Shown here piece by piece: positions 560 to 6,811 of a stretch of DNA of 7,070 nt; position 1 is the stretch's first letter, and each line of letters starts with the position of its first letter. The position numbers and the translations under genes are program-made. The notes under the pieces were generated by a model, which was given only the letters and a program-made list of their open reading frames with translations, was not told the origin of the DNA and did not search any database. The DNA comes from Fimbriimonadaceae bacterium (GTDB taxonomy: Bacteria > Armatimonadota > Fimbriimonadia > Fimbriimonadales > Fimbriimonadaceae). The stretch is from contig JAIBBE010000201.1 in NCBI GenBank assembly GCA_019694835.1, forward strand, positions 1-7,070, written 5' to 3'.

Positions 560-3031
560 ATGAGCCACGAGGCAGCAGGACACGAAGGCCATCATCATGG
601 CGGCCAGCCGGACAAGCCAGTGCGCGATCCAGTATGCGGAATGGACGTTGATCCGAGGTCCACGTCGCACACGGACTCGTACGCCGGACGAACGTACTCT
701 TTCTGCAGCCAACACTGTTTGTCGAAATTCCAAAGCGATCCGAAGCTGTATGTTAAGCAGCAATCGCCGCCTACGGAGGAGGGACGGCCACACACTGCGG
801 CAGCTGAGGACGAGTACACGTGTCCGATGCATCCCGAGGTACGGCAGCAAGGGCCCGGTGCGTGCCCGAAGTGTGGGATGGCCCTGGAACCAGTTACGCC
901 GCCGGCGGCCACGCGCACAGAGTACGTGTGCCCCATGCATCCGGAAATCGTGCGCAGTGAGCCAGGTAGTTGTCCGATATGTGGCATGGCTCTGGAGCCC
1001 AAGACGATTTCGGCAGGCGACGAACCGAATCCCGAACTGGCCGATATGAAGCAGCGCTTCTGGGTTAGCGTTGCCCTCACTATCCCGGTAGTGATCGCCG
1101 CGATGGGCGACATGATCCCCGGACAACCGCTACAGCAACTGGCTTCCAAGCGGACCTGGACGTGGTTCGAACTCATCCTCAGCAGCCCTGTGATCCTTTG
1201 GGGAGGCTGGCCATTCTTTGTCCGCGGCTGGCAATCGATTCTGAATCGTAGCCTGAACATGTTTACGCTCATCGGCTTGGGCGTGTCGGTCGCTTACGTA
1301 TACAGTCTCATCGCAGCTTTAGTGCCCGGAGTATTCCCGGCGACTTTCCGCGATGATGGTGGCAACGTGGCAGTCTACTTCGAGGCCGCCGCTGTCATTG
1401 TCACGCTGGTTCTTCTAGGTCAGGTGCTGGAGCTGAGGGCTCGTAGCCAGACCGGCGCAGCCGTCAAAGCCCTTCTTGGCCTTACTCCGAAGACCGCCCG
1501 CCTGGTTCGAGACGACGGTTCGGAAGTGGATGTCCCGTTGGACCAGGTGCAGGTTGGCGCTCGCCTCCGAGTCCGGCCGGGAGAGAAGGTACCGGTGGAC
1601 GGCGTGGTCGAGGGGGGTACGAGCAGCATAGATGAATCAATGATCACCGGCGAACCGATCCCGGTCGAAAAGGCTGCCGGCGATCGGGTCACGGGCGCTA
1701 CGCTGAATGGCACCGGTACGCTGGTGATGCGGGCCGACCGCGTCGGTTCGGAGACGCTGCTGGCTCAGATCGTGCGAATGGTGTCCGAAGCTCAGCGCAG
1801 CCGTGCACCGATTCAGAAGCTGGCTGATCAGGTGGCCGGGTACTTCGTGCCCATCGTGATAGGTGTCTCCATCCTTACATTTGTCATCTGGGCGTCTGTT
1901 GGACCACAGCCGCGTATGGCTCATGCTTTGATCGCCGCTGTGGCGGTCCTGATTATCGCCTGCCCCTGCGCTCTGGGACTGGCGACACCAATGTCCATCA
2001 TGGTGGCGACCGGCAAAGGCGCGACGATGGGCGTGCTATTCAAGAACGCCGAAGCTATCGAGTTCATGCGTAAAGTGGACACTCTGGTGGTGGACAAAAC
2101 CGGGACGCTCACCGAGGGCAAGCCCAAATTGGTCGCGGTGAAGCCCGCTCCCGGCTTCGATGAAGCGCGCTTGCTGCAATTGGCGGCGAGTCTCGAACGC
2201 GCCAGTGAACACCCCCTTGCTGCTGCCATCGTAGCGGGAGCGGAGGCGCGCGGCGTTGCGTTTCTCGCCGCCGAAAGCTTTGAATCCGTGACGGGCAAGG
2301 GCGTCAAAGCACGGCTGGAAGGGCAGGGCGTGCTCCTCGGCAACGGTCGGCTAATGGAAGACTCAGGGGTTAGTCCGGCAGGCCTCGCCTCGGAGGCCGA
2401 ATCGATGCGCGCGGACGGCCAAACCGTCATGTTCGTCGCTGTGGACGGAAAACTCGCCGGGCTGATCGGTGTCGCGGACCCGATCAAGGCGACCACGGCG
2501 GAAGCCATTCGGCAGTTGCACGAAGAGAACATCCGAATCGTCATGTTGACCGGGGATAGTCGAACGACGGCGCAGGCGGTGGCCAGCAAGCTGGGAATCG
2601 ACGATGTGATTGCCGAGGTGCTGCCGCAAGACAAAAGCAACGCAGTTGGGCGGCTTCAGAACGAGGGCCGGTTCGTGGCCATGGCAGGCGACGGCATCAA
2701 CGACGCACCAGCTCTGGCGAAGGCCCAGATCGGGATTGCCATGGGAACAGGTACTGACGTGGCGATGGAGAGCGCAGGCGTGACCCTCGTCAAAGGTGAC
2801 CTCGGGGGCATCGTCCGGGCGCGACGTTTGAGCCGCGCCACGATGCGAAACATCAAGCAGAACCTGTTCTTCGCCTTCGTCTACAACGCTCTCGGAGTGC
2901 CCATCGCGGCCGGAGTGCTCTACCCCGTCTTTGGATTGCTGTTGAGCCCGATGATCGCGGCGGCCGCCATGAGTTTCAGCTCCGTCTCAGTGGTCGGCAA
3001 TGCCTTGCGCCTCCGACGAGCAGAGGCGTGA
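560..3031 (+). CDS. copA: Cu+-type P1B-ATPase with YHS and two heavy-metal-binding domains
   Basis: An intact 823-residue ATP-driven copper (possibly silver) exporter of the inner membrane. The N-terminus is His-rich (H3, H8, H11-H13). A YHS domain follows (residues 22-65: D-P-V-C26-G-M, C49, C53). Then come two short heavy-metal-binding domains, each CPMHP plus CPxCGM (86-111 and 122-147), in place of the usual ferredoxin-like HMA domains. The catalytic core is complete: TGE (363-365), membrane CPC (468-470), DKTGT with phosphorylated Asp512, the nucleotide-domain HP (551-552) and GDGINDAP (710-717). The last two helices carry Y775-N776 and M804-S-F-S-S808, the signature of the Cu+/Ag+ class P1B-1. 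Helices can be seen near 168-185, 203-222, 234-256, 271-291, 428-446, 455-480, 768-788 and 792-813. ATG 560 has GGAGG (548-552) 7 bases upstream. The symbol is by class; Cu versus Ag preference cannot be read from the sequence. Confidence 0.96.
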
Positions 3032-3118
3032 GCCATCCATTTCCGCTTGGGAGAACACCGTGCCCCTATGGGAGCCGCAAAGACTTGGTCACGTCTGGCC
3101 GCCCGGAGAAGACTCTCA

Positions 3119-3136
3119 GTAGCAGCACGCTGCTAT
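3119..3136. terminator. Weak hairpin between convergent genes
   Basis: TAGCAG (3120-3125) and CTGCTA (3130-3135) form a 6-bp stem around a 4-base loop, with a further G-T pair outside. It sits at the convergent junction, 88 bases after the ATPase stop, and includes the stop codon of the NosL-like gene on the other strand. There is no T-tract on either side, so a termination role is only suggested by its position. Confidence 0.25.
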
Positions 3137-3624
3137 CGCTGAAACGCCGAGGCGAAGTCGGAGAACCTGTCAACTTGGCCTCCATGTTCGGCTACGAAAA
3201 TTTGGGCGGTCTTCATATCACGGAAGGCGAGAATGCTCGGGGAGCATCGGTCGAAGTGAGCGTGCACTGGCTGTTTGTCAGGAGAAATGACCGCCTCGTG
3301 ACGGGTGCAGGGGTTGATATCGCTGTTTTGCACGATGTACGACTCCGAAGGGACTAGGGCGCCGCCTCCCATGTAGTCGGTCAGCTGCGTGACCTGAACC
3401 GGCTTGCCAGCCTGTTGATGTTCAGATAAGGCGCAGGCGGGACAGCAGTAATAGCCGCGCTTGCCATTGATCGACGCTATGGTTCGCGAGTGGTCGTGGA
3501 CTGGGCGGGAACAGGCGCGACAAGTTTGATGCTCCCGCTGGGCAACGTAGCGCCAACCGGAGTAGCCAAGGCCGGTGAGCGCAAGAACTGAAACGAATGT
3601 GACAGCGACGGACCTTCGGTTCAT
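3133..3624 (-). CDS. Membrane-anchored NosL-like metal-binding protein
   Basis: A 163-residue protein convergent with the copper ATPase. Residues 6-22 are a single hydrophobic segment after M-N-R-R, an uncleaved anchor or signal peptide that places the rest in the periplasm. C35-R-A-C38 is followed by H43 and H45, then a compact C60-C-P-A-C64. The C-terminal half has M-G-G-G (85-88), S-Y-I-V, C106 with H109, the D-R-C127-S-P segment and an ending like F-x-x-x-H-G-G-x-V-x-R-F (143-154). That ending is typical of NosL, a lipoprotein that delivers Cu(I) to nitrous oxide reductase. No lipobox is present and no nos genes are nearby, so a general copper-chaperone role is more likely here (inference). 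ATG 3624 is preferred over an in-frame TTG at 3645 because AGGGGA (3634-3639) lies 9 bases upstream of it. Confidence 0.8.
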   Translation of the reverse strand: MNRRSVAVTFVSVLALTGLGYSGWRYVAQREHQTCRACSRPVHDHSRTIASINGKRGYYCCPACALSEHQQAGKPVQVTQLTDYMGGGALVPSESYIVQNSDINPCTRHEAVISPDKQPVHAHFDRCSPSILAFRDMKTAQIFVAEHGGQVDRFSDFASAFQR

Positions 3625-3984
3625 AGCCGCCTGTCCCCTGAGCAAATGCTACATCCGAAGGAATCGCACCACAAGCGGGGCGCGCTGTGACCGCTGGAAG
3701 TGGCCCGAACGACTAAATACCCGCACTTCGTTACTACAGACTCACCGGAATCTAGGACCCCAGGTGGCTGGTCGGTCACCCGGGCGCACACTCGGTGCGG
3801 ATGCCCAATACTCTCCACCGGCTGCTCCTGTTGAGGCATTGGATCGTCGAAACGATCGCTGCGACGTTCGCAAACTCTTGAATCTAAGCACCCTAAGTTC
3901 TGCAGCCGGTTTGGACGTGGACTTGCACTACTCAGGGTGTCACGGCTCACCAAGTTGCTGAACCAGACGAAAGGAGATCTGAAG
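3625..3984. other. Divergent intergenic region with paired palindromes
   Basis: This stretch separates the minus-strand NosL-like gene from the plus-strand secreted helical protein and must hold both promoters. I could not find a convincing -35/-10 pair. One weak minus-strand candidate is TTGTGG and TAGCAT with 17 bases between, just upstream of the NosL-like gene. The clearest structure is a pair of adjacent palindromes at 3842-3857 and 3861-3871, listed separately. No conserved coding sequence is seen in any frame. Confidence 0.5.
3842..3871. promoter_or_regulatory. Two adjacent palindromes, possible operator
   Basis: GATCGT (3842-3847) and ACGATC (3852-3857) form a perfect 6-bp inverted repeat around CGAA. 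Three bases later GCGA (3861-3864) and TCGC (3868-3871) form a second one. They lie 114-143 bases upstream of the secreted protein's start, inside a divergent intergenic region, where a regulator site would be expected. They do not match the CueR or CopY operators as I know them, and no regulator gene is in the window. Confidence 0.25.
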
Positions 3985-4392
3985 ATGAAACGATCAAACA
4001 AGCGGTGGTTCCGAACGGTAGCCTCCGTCTTCCTCTTTGCGCTCACCCTGACCATCGCCAGCGGAACGGCCTCGGCTATTGAACCCGAGGGGGCGATGAA
4101 GTCAAAGGAAGTGAAGGCTCTGGTGGCGAACGCGAAAACACCGGCTGATCACATGAAGCTGGCTCGGCATTTCAACGCGATGGCAGAGAAGCATGAGGCG
4201 GAAGCGCTGGAGCATGAAGCGCTGGTTGTTGAGTACACGCGGAACCCGAGGATGGGTTCTTCAAAGACTCCGATGTCGCCGAATTCGGCAGAACACTGCA
4301 AGTACTTCGCCGAACACTGCCGCAAGGCGGCCAAGGAGATGCGCGCCATGGCCGCGAACCATGAGGCCATGGCGAAGGATGCCGGGAAGTAG
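3985..4392 (+). CDS. Secreted helical His/Cys protein near copper genes
   Basis: A 135-residue protein with a clear signal peptide: K-R-S-N-K-R, a hydrophobic core at about 11-24, and cleavage after A-S-A (29-31). The mature part is almost entirely predicted helix, with charged repeats such as A-E-K-H-E-A-E-A-L-E-H-E-A. His residues at 56, 62, 70 and 77, then H104-C105 and H111-C112 seven residues apart, and H126 make a plausible metal-binding face on a helical hairpin. I recall similar short secreted proteins beside heavy-metal genes in soil bacteria, but cannot give a family name. Copper or silver binding in the periplasm is inference. ATG 3985 is chosen over the longer frame from 3937 because AAAGGAG (3970-3976) lies 8 bases upstream and the signal peptide starts there. 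A terminator follows at 4466. Confidence 0.82.
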   Translation: MKRSNKRWFRTVASVFLFALTLTIASGTASAIEPEGAMKSKEVKALVANAKTPADHMKLARHFNAMAEKHEAEALEHEALVVEYTRNPRMGSSKTPMSPNSAEHCKYFAEHCRKAAKEMRAMAANHEAMAKDAGK

Positions 4393-4465
4393 CGGCTCCG
4401 CTATCCTTGGCGAGGTCGGCAGCAGTCGTCGGAGCTACGATCAGACAAGCGTTTGAAAGACCTGT

Positions 4466-4507
4466 ATCGCACCGGTGCCGTAAGGGTTGCCGGTGCGATT
4501 ACGTTTT
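4466..4507 (+). terminator. Intrinsic terminator of the secreted helical protein gene
   Basis: ATCGCACCGG (4466-4475) pairs perfectly with CCGGTGCGAT (4490-4499), giving a 10-bp GC-rich stem with a 14-base loop. T-A-C-G and then TTTT (4504-4507) follow. The hairpin starts 74 bases after the stop at 4392 and closes that transcription unit. The T-tract is short and set off by three bases, so efficiency may be moderate. Confidence 0.7.
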
Positions 4508-4527
4508 GACGCGGTGAGGAGCGCACC

Positions 4528-4713
4528 ATTCAGACTGGCGAAACAGCCAATGGCAAGCCCATCGTCGTTGTACAGCACCCGCACGCTTTGCTCATGGAGC
4601 TGGGCATCCACTGCGCGCCCTATCGGGAAACCGCGGAAGAGATCGGACGGTTAGGTGGCTCCTCACAGGACGCTTCTTTATTCCTTGTCAGCGCGCTTGA
4701 GACTTGTGATTGA
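4528..4713 (+). CDS. Unrecognised short reading frame upstream of methyltransferase
   Basis: The frame is open from 4510 to TGA 4711-4713 and reads like real protein: I-V-V-V-Q-H-P-H-A-L-L, then M-E-L-G-I-H-C-A-P-Y-R-E-T-A-E-E-I, ending S-A-L-E-T-C-D. There is no ATG, GTG or TTG near the front. GAGGAG (4516-4521) lies 6 bases before an ATT at 4528 (61 residues), a rare start codon. The first ATG in frame is at 4594 (39 residues). It may therefore be a gene with an unusual start or the remnant of a longer one. It ends 12 bases before the methyltransferase start, and its TGA overlaps that gene's Shine-Dalgarno, so translational coupling is likely. I do not recognise the family. Confidence 0.35.
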   Translation: MQTGETANGKPIVVVQHPHALLMELGIHCAPYRETAEEIGRLGGSSQDASLFLVSALETCD

Positions 4714-4725
4714 GGGGATTCCAGT

Positions 4726-5465
4726 TTGGAAGCGAACCGTATGAGATCGGACGCAGAGGGTCTCCGCGAGAGCGTTCGGGAAGCGTATAGAGCCGCGGCC
4801 ACCAATCCGGATGGCAAGCACCCCTTTCCTGTTGGAGCGGCCTTCGCACTCAGAGTGGGGTATCCACCCGAATGGCTGGAACAATTACCTTCTGAATCGG
4901 CCAACTTCTTTGCGGGCGTCTCAAACGTATCGCTGTGGGCTCCAATCCAAGAAGGAATGCTAGTTGTTGACCTCGGCTGCGGCGCAGGGCTGGACAGCAT
5001 CATCGCTGCTCAGCGAGCGGGCAATCGGGGGCTAGTCGTTGGTTTCGATTTCAGCGGTGAAATGCTACAGCGGACTCGCGCTGCCGCCACCGGAGCAAAA
5101 AGCGAAACCCTGAATTCCTGCGCTCACCAGCGGAACCGCTTCCGTGACGAGTGCTTCCGTAGATTCCGTACTCGTGAATGGGATCTTCAACCTGAACCCG
5201 CACCGGCGAGAGATCTTTCGGGGACTCGCACAGATCCTAAAGCCCGAGGCCGAGGTTTTCGGAGCCGAACTGATCGTGAACACGACCTTGTCGAAGTCAG
5301 ATCGCGAGCTGGTTCTCGTGAATCGCAGGAGCCAAGGATGCGGGTGCATTACTGGAGGAGTCTCACGGGGCTGGATTTCGCGTGTCCAGAATCGTGCGCT
5401 CGTTACGAAACGCAAGGACCAAGAATCCAGCCGTGGTCGCGGCCGAATTCAGCGTAGCTCGATGA
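4726..5465 (+). pseudogene. Class I SAM-dependent methyltransferase, three frameshifts and an in-frame TGA
   Basis: Related to arsenite-methyltransferase-like proteins. The start is TTG 4726 with AGGGGA (4713-4718) 7 bases upstream; ATG 4741 is the alternative. Frame 1 carries H-P-F-P-V-G, F-A-G-V-S-N-V-S, motif I V-V-D-L-G-C-G-A-G-L-D-S (residues 80-91) and acidic D108. Family sequence then moves to a second frame (N-P-E-F-L-R-S-P-A-E-P-L-P, 5106-5144), to a third (V-D-S-V-L-V-N-G-I-F-N-L-N-P, with I-L-K-P and A-E-L-I), and back to the second from TGG 5310 to TGA 5463-5465. The implied lesions are one base missing in the A-run 5097-5101, one G missing at 5144 and one extra base near 5309. 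The repaired product would be about 246 residues, normal for the family. An in-frame TGA (5319-5321) lies in W-F-S-*-I-A-G-A. A decayed gene is most likely. Sequencing error is possible, though the long ATPase gene is clean. Confidence 0.75.
5319..5355 (+). promoter_or_regulatory. Candidate selenocysteine TGA with bacterial SECIS-like hairpin
   Basis: After TGA (5319-5321), ATGC (5338-5341) and GCAT (5346-5349) pair around a GGGT loop (5342-5345). A G-U pair extends this, and beyond a 2x2 mismatch CCA (5332-5334) pairs with TGG (5353-5355). The loop begins 20 bases after the TGA and has G at its first two positions. This fits the published description of bacterial SECIS elements (loop 16-37 nt downstream, G in the first two loop positions). 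The hairpin is small and such fits can occur by chance. The TGA could also be a nonsense mutation of a Cys codon in a dying gene. Confidence 0.35.
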
Positions 5466-5617
5466 ACTCCAGCGTTCGACAATTGACGCGGCTTCCGAAT
5501 CTGGCCGAGCTAACCACAACCGGATCGGAGTGGGCTCAACACCGTCTCACCTCATTACGTTGACGTGCTGGGAAGACGCCACCGGCGCCATGTACTGACG
5601 ATCCCTGAAGGAGAGTG

Positions 5618-6256
5618 TCATAGGCCGCTTATGTAGGCGATTACCGCATCGACCTCATGCCGCTTGAGGAACTGGCCGCGAACAAGGACCTCTCGATCGT
5701 TGAGCTCGCCGATGCGCAGCTTTGCTCGAATCTCCGCAGCGGTGAAGCGGTTGCCGATGCCCACCAGCGGCTTCACGTCCTCGCAGATGTCGAGAGCACC
5801 ATCCGCCCCATGACAGCGGGCGCAGGAGCCTTCAAAGACGCCCTTGCCTTCCTGCCAAACCTTAACGAACACGGCTAGATGCGAGCCCGTCAACACTTGG
5901 CCTGCAAGGATGCGGCGCACCACACCGCTAGAGTCGATCAGGATGGTCCACGACCGAGCAGGGCCGAGCAGTCGCCGGTCTTGGTCCGTATTCCCTTGCA
6001 AGAAGAGCACGACCACATCAAGTGGTTCAAGCTGACGGCAGGCGTCATCACGGACCTCCACCGTCAGCAGGCCGCCCTGGGCCTGCGCTAACAGGATGGC
6101 GACCCTCTTCTGGCGGTTGTCGGCGAGGCGCACCGCAGTCCCCCTGCAGTCCTTCGCGTCAAGTTCCGGTGCCCGCACGCCAAGCTTCACCTCCGCGCCC
6201 TGCAGCAACGCGCAGTTCAGCAGGGCAAATCTTATCCACGAGATCCGGATGCGCAT
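5618..6256 (-). CDS. Secreted redoxin-like/cytochrome c fusion protein
   Basis: A 212-residue protein. Residues 1-21 resemble a signal peptide (M-R-I-R-I-S, hydrophobic to about 19, cleavage near G-A). Residues 26-125 follow a redoxin/TlpA pattern: R-A-P-E-L-D opening, a beta strand R-V-A-I-L-L-A, then V-V-V-L-F-L and W-T-I-L-I-D-S-S-G-V-V-R-R. The place where the catalytic cysteine(s) would sit reads A-Q-A-Q-G-G. Residues 134-212 are a monohaem cytochrome c with haem site C145-A-R-C148-H149 and final helix E-V-D-A-V-I-A-Y-I. No methionine occurs after M1, so the usual Met axial ligand is absent; H200 is a possible replacement. It is probably a periplasmic electron-transfer protein. ATG 6256 has GGGAAGGG (6267-6274) 10 bases upstream. 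It converges with the methyltransferase locus across about 150 bases in which I see nothing. Confidence 0.85.
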   Translation of the reverse strand: MRIRISWIRFALLNCALLQGAEVKLGVRAPELDAKDCRGTAVRLADNRQKRVAILLAQAQGGLLTVEVRDDACRQLEPLDVVVLFLQGNTDQDRRLLGPARSWTILIDSSGVVRRILAGQVLTGSHLAVFVKVWQEGKGVFEGSCARCHGADGALDICEDVKPLVGIGNRFTAAEIRAKLRIGELNDREVLVRGQFLKRHEVDAVIAYISGL

Positions 6257-6318
6257 AGCCTAAATACCCTTCCCATTATCGCGCCAGCGTCCTCAGAGGA
6301 TGCGATCTGCCCGCAGTC

Positions 6319-6377
6319 GGTTCGGCATCACGGTACTCACCGAGAATCGCAACGGTGAGCTGACGAGATGCCGAGCC
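6319..6377. repeat. 59-nt two-tier inverted repeat (stem-loop)
   Basis: The outer stem is TCGGCATC (6322-6329) with GATGCCGA (6367-6374), extended by a T-G wobble and two G-C pairs to 6319/6377. The inner stem is CTCACCG (6336-6342) with CGGTGAG (6353-6359), closing a 10-base loop. A 6/7-base internal loop joins the two. There is no T-tract, so it is not an ordinary terminator. It lies 63 bases upstream of the cytochrome-fusion start codon. It could be a leader structure, a small palindromic repeat element or a protein-binding site. The pairing is direct observation; the role is unknown. Confidence 0.55.
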
Positions 6378-6517
6378 AAAGTATCAACAAGTAGCTTTGG
6401 GTATTGAGAAGCGGAAGATAAGATGACTCGAGAAGGAGATTTCCCGAATGGACCGAGCGACGCGCAGGCCAACACGAACGGAGGCAGCGTTCTGCCGCCG
6501 TGTCCCCGAGAGTCGAT

Positions 6518-6543
6518 CTGTCCCAAAACTGTGCCAAAACCCC
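6518..6543 (+). repeat. Direct repeat CTGTGCCAAAACCCC, copies 1 and 2
   Basis: A variant copy CTGTCCCAAAAC (6518-6529) runs directly into an exact copy CTGTGCCAAAACCCC (6529-6543). The same unit recurs in the same orientation at 6768 and 6798, on the other side of the tRNA fragment. Repeats of this size flanking a tRNA-borne core resemble integrase arm-binding sites, but that is inference. Confidence 0.65.
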
Positions 6544-6655
6544 ATCTGATTGGGTGCCTTGAGGTTACTGACCGAGCGAGAGCAGATTCCCCAAGTTGTT
6601 GAAAACATAGCAATCAGTATAGAGCCATTGGAAGGTTTGGAGCCGGTACCTGTAC

Positions 6656-6700
6656 TTCGTAATCAGCAGGTCGCCGGTTCGATCCCGGCGGGTGGCTCCA
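6656..6700 (+). tRNA. 3' fragment of tRNA-Thr(CGU), likely att core
   Basis: The fragment matches a tRNA from the anticodon loop onward. It comprises loop TTCGTAA with anticodon CGT (6656-6662), 3' anticodon strand TCAGC, five-base variable loop AGGTC, T-arm GCCGG-TTCGATC-CCGGC (6673-6689), acceptor strand GGGTGGC (6690-6696), discriminator T and encoded CCA (6698-6700). The bases before the loop (TGTAC) do not pair with TCAGC. No D-arm or 5' acceptor (GCCACCC) occurs upstream, so the tRNA cannot fold and is not functional. Integrating elements that use tRNA genes often cross over at the anticodon loop and leave just such a 3' piece at one end. The native-looking terminator downstream suggests that the chromosome lies to the right and the element to the left. 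Confidence 0.85.
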
Positions 6701-6727
6701 GAAATCATTGAAAAACAAGAAGTTAGG

Positions 6728-6762
6728 AAGCCGGTTTTCTTCGGAGGACCGGCTTTTGCTTT
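6728..6762 (+). terminator. Strong intrinsic terminator downstream of the tRNA-Thr fragment
   Basis: AAGCCGGT (6728-6735) pairs with ACCGGCTT (6748-6755). The stem continues through TTTC/GAGG, with two G-U pairs, to a very stable C(TTCG)G tetraloop at 6740-6743. TTTT (6754-6757) and a further T-rich stretch follow. It lies 28 bases after the tRNA CCA end, the usual place for a tRNA terminator. Confidence 0.85.
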
Positions 6763-6767
6763 GTCAG

Positions 6768-6811
6768 CTGTGCCAAAACCCCGAACAGTCTTCTCACCTG
6801 TGCCAAAACCC
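6768..6811 (+). repeat. Direct repeat CTGTGCCAAAACCC, copies 3 and 4
   Basis: CTGTGCCAAAACCCC (6768-6782) and CTGTGCCAAAACCC (6798-6811) are 30 bases apart and in the same orientation as the copies at 6518-6543. They begin just after the terminator that follows the tRNA fragment. They are not inverted relative to the left copies, so they do not look like the two ends of one insertion sequence. Confidence 0.7.

Follow-up and report, generated by a model that had tools for sequence, protein, structure and literature searches.

Does an in-frame TGA near the end of a methyltransferase-like gene mark a lesion or the position of a selenocysteine (Sec)? This question is raised by a stretch of 7,070 nucleotides assigned to a Fimbriimonadaceae bacterium (GCA_019694835.1, contig JAIBBE010000201.1; the whole stretch is hereafter called the window). 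A preliminary description of this DNA pointed to a TGA codon followed by a hairpin resembling a selenocysteine insertion sequence (SECIS), and proposed a selenoprotein methyltransferase of the arsenite/selenium type in a copy that might be decaying. We conclude, with a probability of roughly 0.88, that the window holds one decayed member of a gene family whose intact members are predicted to be selenoproteins. The in-frame stop is very likely a real selenocysteine site, and the intact relatives are very likely to constitute a widespread set of selenoprotein methyltransferases. The letters are as described: W-F-S (5310-5318) is followed by TGA (5319-5321), then by I-A-G-A-K-D onward to a stop at 5463-5465, and this 'proper stop' is itself TGA.

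The evidence that carries this reading comes from relatives of the gene. A scan of our genome collection returned 52 loci: the window's own broken gene (L002) and 51 others. Every one of these 51 has TGA at the Sec column, and TGC occurs there solely in wrong-frame alignments of the window's own gene. The frames around the TGA are otherwise mostly open, with at least 183 codons before it in 48 of the 51 loci and exactly 47 after it in 41 (range 26-54), and the genes end with TAG (21), TAA (21) or TGA (9). Less clean loci include L050, L052 and L053, with fewer than 150 open codons upstream of TGA, L042 and L044, with short tails of 28 and 26 codons, and L051, whose first part fails to align with its relatives. 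The 47 residues after the TGA are conserved as protein, including I-A-G-A-K and R-N-A-R-T-K. A cysteine or selenocysteine had been expected before I-A-G-A, and this expectation holds: the 51 loci have TGA, and cysteine is present in two protein-database members (P0024 and P0027) and in the arsenite methyltransferase ArsM. We regard selenocysteine in the intact family as nearly certain.

The hosts, as named by record title, span about ten phyla, namely Acidobacteriota, Chloroflexota, Myxococcota, Planctomycetota, Rokubacteria, Methylomirabilota, Nitrospirota, Actinomycetota, Thermodesulfobacteriota, Pseudomonadota and Gemmatimonadetes, and single placements may be wrong because most hosts are metagenome-assembled genomes (MAGs). 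The distribution is patchy, such that only four of 247 Acidobacteriota genomes (the centre, G003, among them) carry a member, all four with TGA. Among the 51 other loci, the acidobacterial genes are nearest to the window methyltransferase.

The window copy itself has no single open frame even when the Sec codon is set aside. Open reading frames (ORFs) and tblastn alignments place the gene in frame 1 to about 5100, in frame 2 from about 5141 to 5305 and in frame 0 to 5465, and another short frame-0 piece can be seen by eye between pieces 1 and 2 (Table 1). The Pfam models Methyltransf_31, Methyltransf_25 and Methyltransf_11 match piece 1. An identically broken gene is present in JADLEU010000359.1, filed as Anaerolineales bacterium SJ338, which matches the window at 99.7% over 2774-6705 and has zero mismatches from 3039 to 6675. 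Because the frame breaks are the same, a random sequencing error confined to the window is unlikely, with the proviso that the two assemblies may or may not share reads. The suspicion that this copy is decaying is thus almost surely right and, its frame being broken, the copy should no longer make a methyltransferase protein.

Table 1. Coordinates of the methyltransferase gene and its parts in the window.
Feature	Position	Strand	Basis
Decayed ArsM-fold (predicted), selenocysteine-type methyltransferase gene	4741..5465	+	at least 3 reading-frame pieces; tblastn with relatives L003, L008, L010, L015
Piece 1, frame 1: N-terminal region and SAM-binding motif D-L-G-C-G-A-G	4741..5097	+	
Piece 2, frame 2: middle region with V-N-G-I-F-N-L-N at the ArsM Cys174 site	5141..5305	+	
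Piece 3, frame 0: W-F-S-[TGA]-I-A-G-A-K-D through the final stop	5301..5465	+	
In-frame TGA at the selenocysteine column (Cys224 of CmArsM)	5319..5321	+	TGA in 51/51 other loci; column mapped onto the CmArsM chain
SECIS-like hairpin, 5-bp stem, GGGT loop	5337..5350	+	
Terminal stop (TGA) of the methyltransferase frame	5463..5465	+	47 codons past the Sec codon, like 41/51 relatives
SAM, S-adenosylmethionine.

The reported hairpin is likewise present. ATGC (5338-5341) and GCAT (5346-5349) enclose the loop GGGT (5342-5345), the fold of the identical L002 sequence adds an outer G-T pair (5337/5350), and the 4-bp stem starts at the 17th base past the TGA. Taken alone this short hairpin is ordinary, and it exceeds chance only at the level of the family, where the stem of most relatives is longer (7-8 bp), with a loop of 3-4 nucleotides (nt) at the same distance from the TGA. 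We scored 27-nt segments by a z value that compares each fold with shuffles preserving the protein and following the gene's codon usage. The segment starting 12 nt past the TGA has a mean z of -1.79 in the 51 genes and falls in the lowest 5% in 43% of them, and ten other segments of the same genes range from -0.21 to +0.14. In a 52-row alignment, 89.0% of the cells of an 8-pair helix can pair (86.7 +/- 0.5 when shuffled, 48-66% when the helix is slid), and four of its pairs show two-sided changes, including G-C to C-G.

Control sets were taken from ArsM-like relatives. Among such genes of Chloroflexota and Acidobacteriota, 14 Sec genes (two of them, L085b and L086, members of the window family) have z values of -1.5 at +6 and -1.6 at +9, and 22 Cys genes lie between -0.24 and +0.24, hence without an average signal. 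In Desulfobacterota, 15 Sec genes reach -2.38 at +9 (one, L135, is very probably the L044 gene again, from the same genome and a contig of equal length), as compared with -0.23 to +0.09 for 56 Cys genes. These last counts come from a set of 80 loci and exclude four that lack the motif (L130, L149, L158 and L168), five with neither Cys nor a stop at the column (L164-L167 and L169), and 10 extra rows that are second motif matches in loci already counted. Judged by these comparisons, the hairpin after the TGA is kept at the RNA level, beyond synonymous codon choice. No Rfam family reaches its gathering score in the window, and ARAGORN finds zero tRNAs there.

The machinery for selenocysteine insertion is common among the hosts. 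Across 50 host genomes (G002, with the window's broken gene, and 49 others), SelB exceeds its cut-off in 44, tRNA-Sec scores above 60 bits in 40, and one or both are found in 47. The 60-bit threshold is our own, used because the Rfam gathering score for tRNA-Sec is unspecific (exceeded in five of 14 control genomes). In the acidobacterial genomes whose genes resemble that of the window (G003, G008 and G010), SelB exceeds the cut-off and tRNA-Sec scores more than 70 bits. The preliminary description had named two outcomes that would speak against selenocysteine: homologues with only Cys codons and no conserved hairpin downstream, or a host devoid of SelB and tRNA-Sec. For the family, both checks favoured selenocysteine, given the TGA column, the conserved hairpin and the 47 of 50 host genomes.

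Several observations nevertheless weigh against the selenoprotein reading. The mean z over the 51 genes does not amount to 51 independent tests, because these genes are related. Four two-sided changed pairs are also reached in 23 of 500 shuffles, 20 of 51 rows lack the loop-closing pair (columns 24/28), and the RNAalifold covariation term is small (-0.22). The helix slid by -1 contains more two-sided changed cells than the helix in place (34 vs 7), because the stem is shifted by one base in some members, such as the window's nearest relatives. On the side of the hosts, neither tRNA-Sec nor SelB was found in our search of the partial MAG G050, and G011 and G030 yielded only apparent SelB fragments below the cut-off. 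SelB is frequent in the background (158 of 201 Chloroflexota and 164 of 247 Acidobacteriota genomes), so its co-occurrence with the family carries little weight (binomial p 0.07 and 0.0005). Finally, the confidence of the structural model is lowest near the Sec position, with means of 67 for residues 171-180 and 72 for residues 181-190.

Protein databases largely hide this family. Among 5.8 billion proteins searched, 7999 candidates were scored, and 6669 of them, methyltransferases in a wide sense, matched at E <= 1e-10. Of the best 120 of these 6669, 114 end one residue before the Sec column, at W-F-A or similar, and the remaining six have Cys (P0024 and P0027), Trp (P0022, P0032 and P0053) or another ending (one). 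In ordinary pipelines the family is mostly recorded as a methyltransferase cut short at about 194-198 residues, and a correct reading would restore the C-terminal fifth of the protein plus a likely active-site residue. Some source names of family proteins are arsenite methyltransferase, and in the four members scanned against NCBIfam none of the 25 models listed per member reached its cut-off.

Three other explanations for the TGA deserve consideration. The codon could be an ordinary nonsense mutation in a dying arsenite methyltransferase gene of the Cys type, followed by a hairpin that arose by chance. That the window copy is broken elsewhere, and that its hairpin alone is ordinary, would suit this idea, which we nonetheless find extremely improbable: the other 51 loci share the TGA in frames that are nearly all otherwise open, and the hairpin is selected beyond codon choice with no average signal in Cys relatives. 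At the level of the family, the TGA column and the hairpin data lead us to reject a nonsense mutation.

It is equally hard to credit that tryptophan is inserted at the TGA (genetic code 4), or that ribosomes read through it unspecifically, even though three database proteins have tryptophan at the column. These three fall at two distinct points among the Sec rows, and their source contigs, from JGI, measure 1066-1455 bases; given this scatter and these short contigs, their tryptophan is likely a TGA called under code 4. Moreover, TGA terminates nine of the 51 genes, two members have Cys at the column, most hosts possess SelB and tRNA-Sec, and a tryptophan reading would require no hairpin. A last option is that the proteins truly end at the TGA, the sequence beyond it being regulatory or an element of its own, as the 114 shortened predictions might suggest. 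We assign this a very small chance, since the 47 downstream residues are conserved as protein and modelled well (block means of 92-98 from residue 191 onward), and the two Cys members read through the column. Selenocysteine in the intact relatives thus remains the preferred reading.

What kind of methyltransferase might this be? The predicted fold of the family is that of ArsM, a SAM-dependent methyltransferase: the best fold and sequence matches in the Protein Data Bank (PDB) are ArsM enzymes, and the SAM motif is present. The Sec column aligns with Cys224 of CmArsM. At the other arsenic-binding columns the family has V in place of Cys72 (47 of 48) and G in place of Cys174 (48 of 48), so that only the Cys224 column is kept, as Sec, and the SAM motif holds the sole other conserved Cys (49 of 50 rows). 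A definition of ArsM given in PMC5552862 calls for at least three of four conserved cysteines (44, 72, 174 and 224 of CmArsM), a number that the window family does not attain. The earlier proposal stands as to selenocysteine and needs amending as to function: the label 'arsenite methyltransferase' is doubtful, since the family lacks two of the three cysteines that bind arsenic.

In trees, the window family forms a single clade (100/99 and 100/100). A split with 100/99 support separates 48 rows (43 Sec, five Cys) from 41 rows of triad-type ArsM (37 Cys, four Sec). The five Cys rows of the 48-row clade include P0024, P0027 and the long-branch L161, and the nesting of P0024 and P0027 inside the window family suggests one replacement of Sec by Cys. 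L128 and L129, the two places over the cut-off of NF041537, also sit inside this clade. In these two, as in L182, the NF041536 locus, V and G occupy the Cys72 and Cys174 columns, although a further Cys lies two residues earlier. Most of the Desulfobacterota sister Sec proteins similarly carry another Cys two residues before the Cys72 column, which counts against the one-ligand idea discussed below. The four Sec rows L120-L123 have Sec at the Cys224 column, keep both Cys72 and Cys174, and branch within the Cys-type ArsM proteins. We had considered that Sec always accompanies loss of the arsenic cysteines, and this idea failed because these four of the 15 Desulfobacterota Sec genes retain both. 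Judging from the tree, Sec probably appeared at the Cys224 column in two or more settings, with L120-L123 as a probable second, separate origin. The cysteine loss marks a clade and probably one event, for which reason Fisher tests of Sec against cysteine loss overstate independence.

Three side observations concern ArsM-like proteins more generally. L164-L167 have C, R and H/Q/E at the three arsenic-site columns. At L035, two different Sec-type methyltransferase genes lie side by side (2959-3705 and 3781-4419), the second from another subgroup. In Desulfobacterota, ArsM-like domains occur inside open frames of about 1000-1200 codons (G634:C6, G683:C1, G563:C55 and others).

If the intact members are selenoproteins, SelB and Sec-tRNA(Sec) would read the UGA with the aid of the hairpin, giving a product of about 240 residues with one selenolate beside the SAM site. 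This selenolate might hold the substrate during methyl transfer from SAM. In ArsM, arsenite is bound by three Cys, methylarsenite by two and dimethylarsenite by one, as stated in PMC3877260. A single selenolate without partner thiols should not handle arsenite in the ArsM way, and one ligand instead of three could indicate a substrate with one bonding place, such as dimethylarsenite or another organo-metalloid or metal species. We favour this one-ligand substrate, though tentatively and with odds below even, and the idea is based on residue absence alone. Another possibility is that the intact members are Sec-type arsenite methyltransferases that act on As(III) or methylarsenite and use other ligands in place of Cys72 and Cys174. 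The ArsM matches in the PDB and the source names speak for it. We consider it unlikely given that, according to PMC3877260, the CmArsM variants C174A and C224A methylate neither arsenite nor methylarsenite, and that the family's one other conserved Cys belongs to the SAM motif.

Genomic neighbours do not help the one-ligand proposal, as 295 neighbouring ORFs reveal no substrate and no conserved operon. The largest shared groups are ABC transporters (seven loci, scattered) and a phosphorylase-superfamily gene next to six acidobacterial members. The latter adjoins L004, L005, L008, L009, L013 and L025, with PF01048 in the two that were scanned. In its broadest form, our suggestion would be a large family of free-standing, single-selenol methyltransferases, spread over about ten phyla, that has abandoned the three-thiol site of ArsM in favour of one selenocysteine; its substrates would be metalloid or metal species with a single free bonding place (dimethylarsenite, organo-mercury-like or other compounds), or the selenolate would serve as a catalytic handle in the transfer of the methyl group. 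We view this broader picture as possible but still somewhat doubtful. The family itself would provide a natural experiment in which one fold has either three thiols or one selenol, making the role of selenium in metalloid methylation testable.

Sec-containing relatives of ArsM are already known; the group described here is a poorly annotated, free-standing, single-selenol subfamily. A Sec-type arsenite methyltransferase appears on published lists in PMC2398784 (eight in its GOS table), PMC9312934 and PMC13188914, and the last credits it to Fomenko et al. 2007. In the literature that we searched, we found no description of the free-standing family, and Haft and Tolstoy 2025 and Haft and Gwadz 2023 could already mention the group. 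The window family shares its fold, Sec column and U-x-x-G motif with the Sec-containing arsenite methyltransferases (PRK11873/NF008823), but the four members scanned score far below the NF008823 cut-off of 263 bits (L003 164.2, L007 139.9, L015 179.2 and L035 155.9). It also lacks the Cys72 and Cys174 that L120-L123 retain, and is far from them in the tree.

Closer in column residues are NF041537 (ArsM_AhpD_UU) and NF041536 (ArsM_DUF2284_UU), whose loci over the cut-offs share the Sec column and the absence of Cys at the 72 and 174 columns; for NF041536 the likeness is drawn from these residues, outside the tree. Both are fusions with a second Sec domain, whereas the window family is free-standing and ends 26-54 residues after Sec. 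The four scanned members reach 169-198 bits against NF041537 (cut-off 510) and 139-170 bits against NF041536 (cut-off 575). A next-best model, the methyltransferase/UXPK-star double selenoprotein NF047649, scores 143.5-183.5 bits in these members (cut-off 460) and likewise includes a second Sec domain that the window family lacks. CmArsM, CrArsM and human AS3MT have three arsenic-binding Cys and no Sec, in contrast to the one Sec of the window family, and the algal ArsM chains are longer (377-387 residues vs about 240).

The rest of the window bears on its origin. A heavy-metal P-type ATPase with YHS and two HMBD domains (560-3031, +) shares 81% identity with a gene of G008 and 87% (over residues 111-823) with one of G010; by title, these two genomes are Acidobacteria. 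The best copy in the Anaerolineales MAG G001 reaches 51% (33 genomes searched). By these similarities and the acidobacterial affinity of the methyltransferase, the window is probably acidobacterial DNA, and JADLEU010000359.1 was probably mis-binned as Anaerolineales. The surroundings of the methyltransferase gene have a metal and respiration flavour, with a NosL-like protein that scores under its cut-off and a cytochrome c protein (3133-3645 and 5618-6256, both -). Two small, exported-looking proteins without a Pfam match are encoded at 71-454 and 3937-4392 (both +). The match to JADLEU010000359.1 stops abruptly at 6705/6706, like an insertion or recombination edge, and the word CTGTGCCAAAACCC can be seen by eye three times within 300 bases at 6526-6810.
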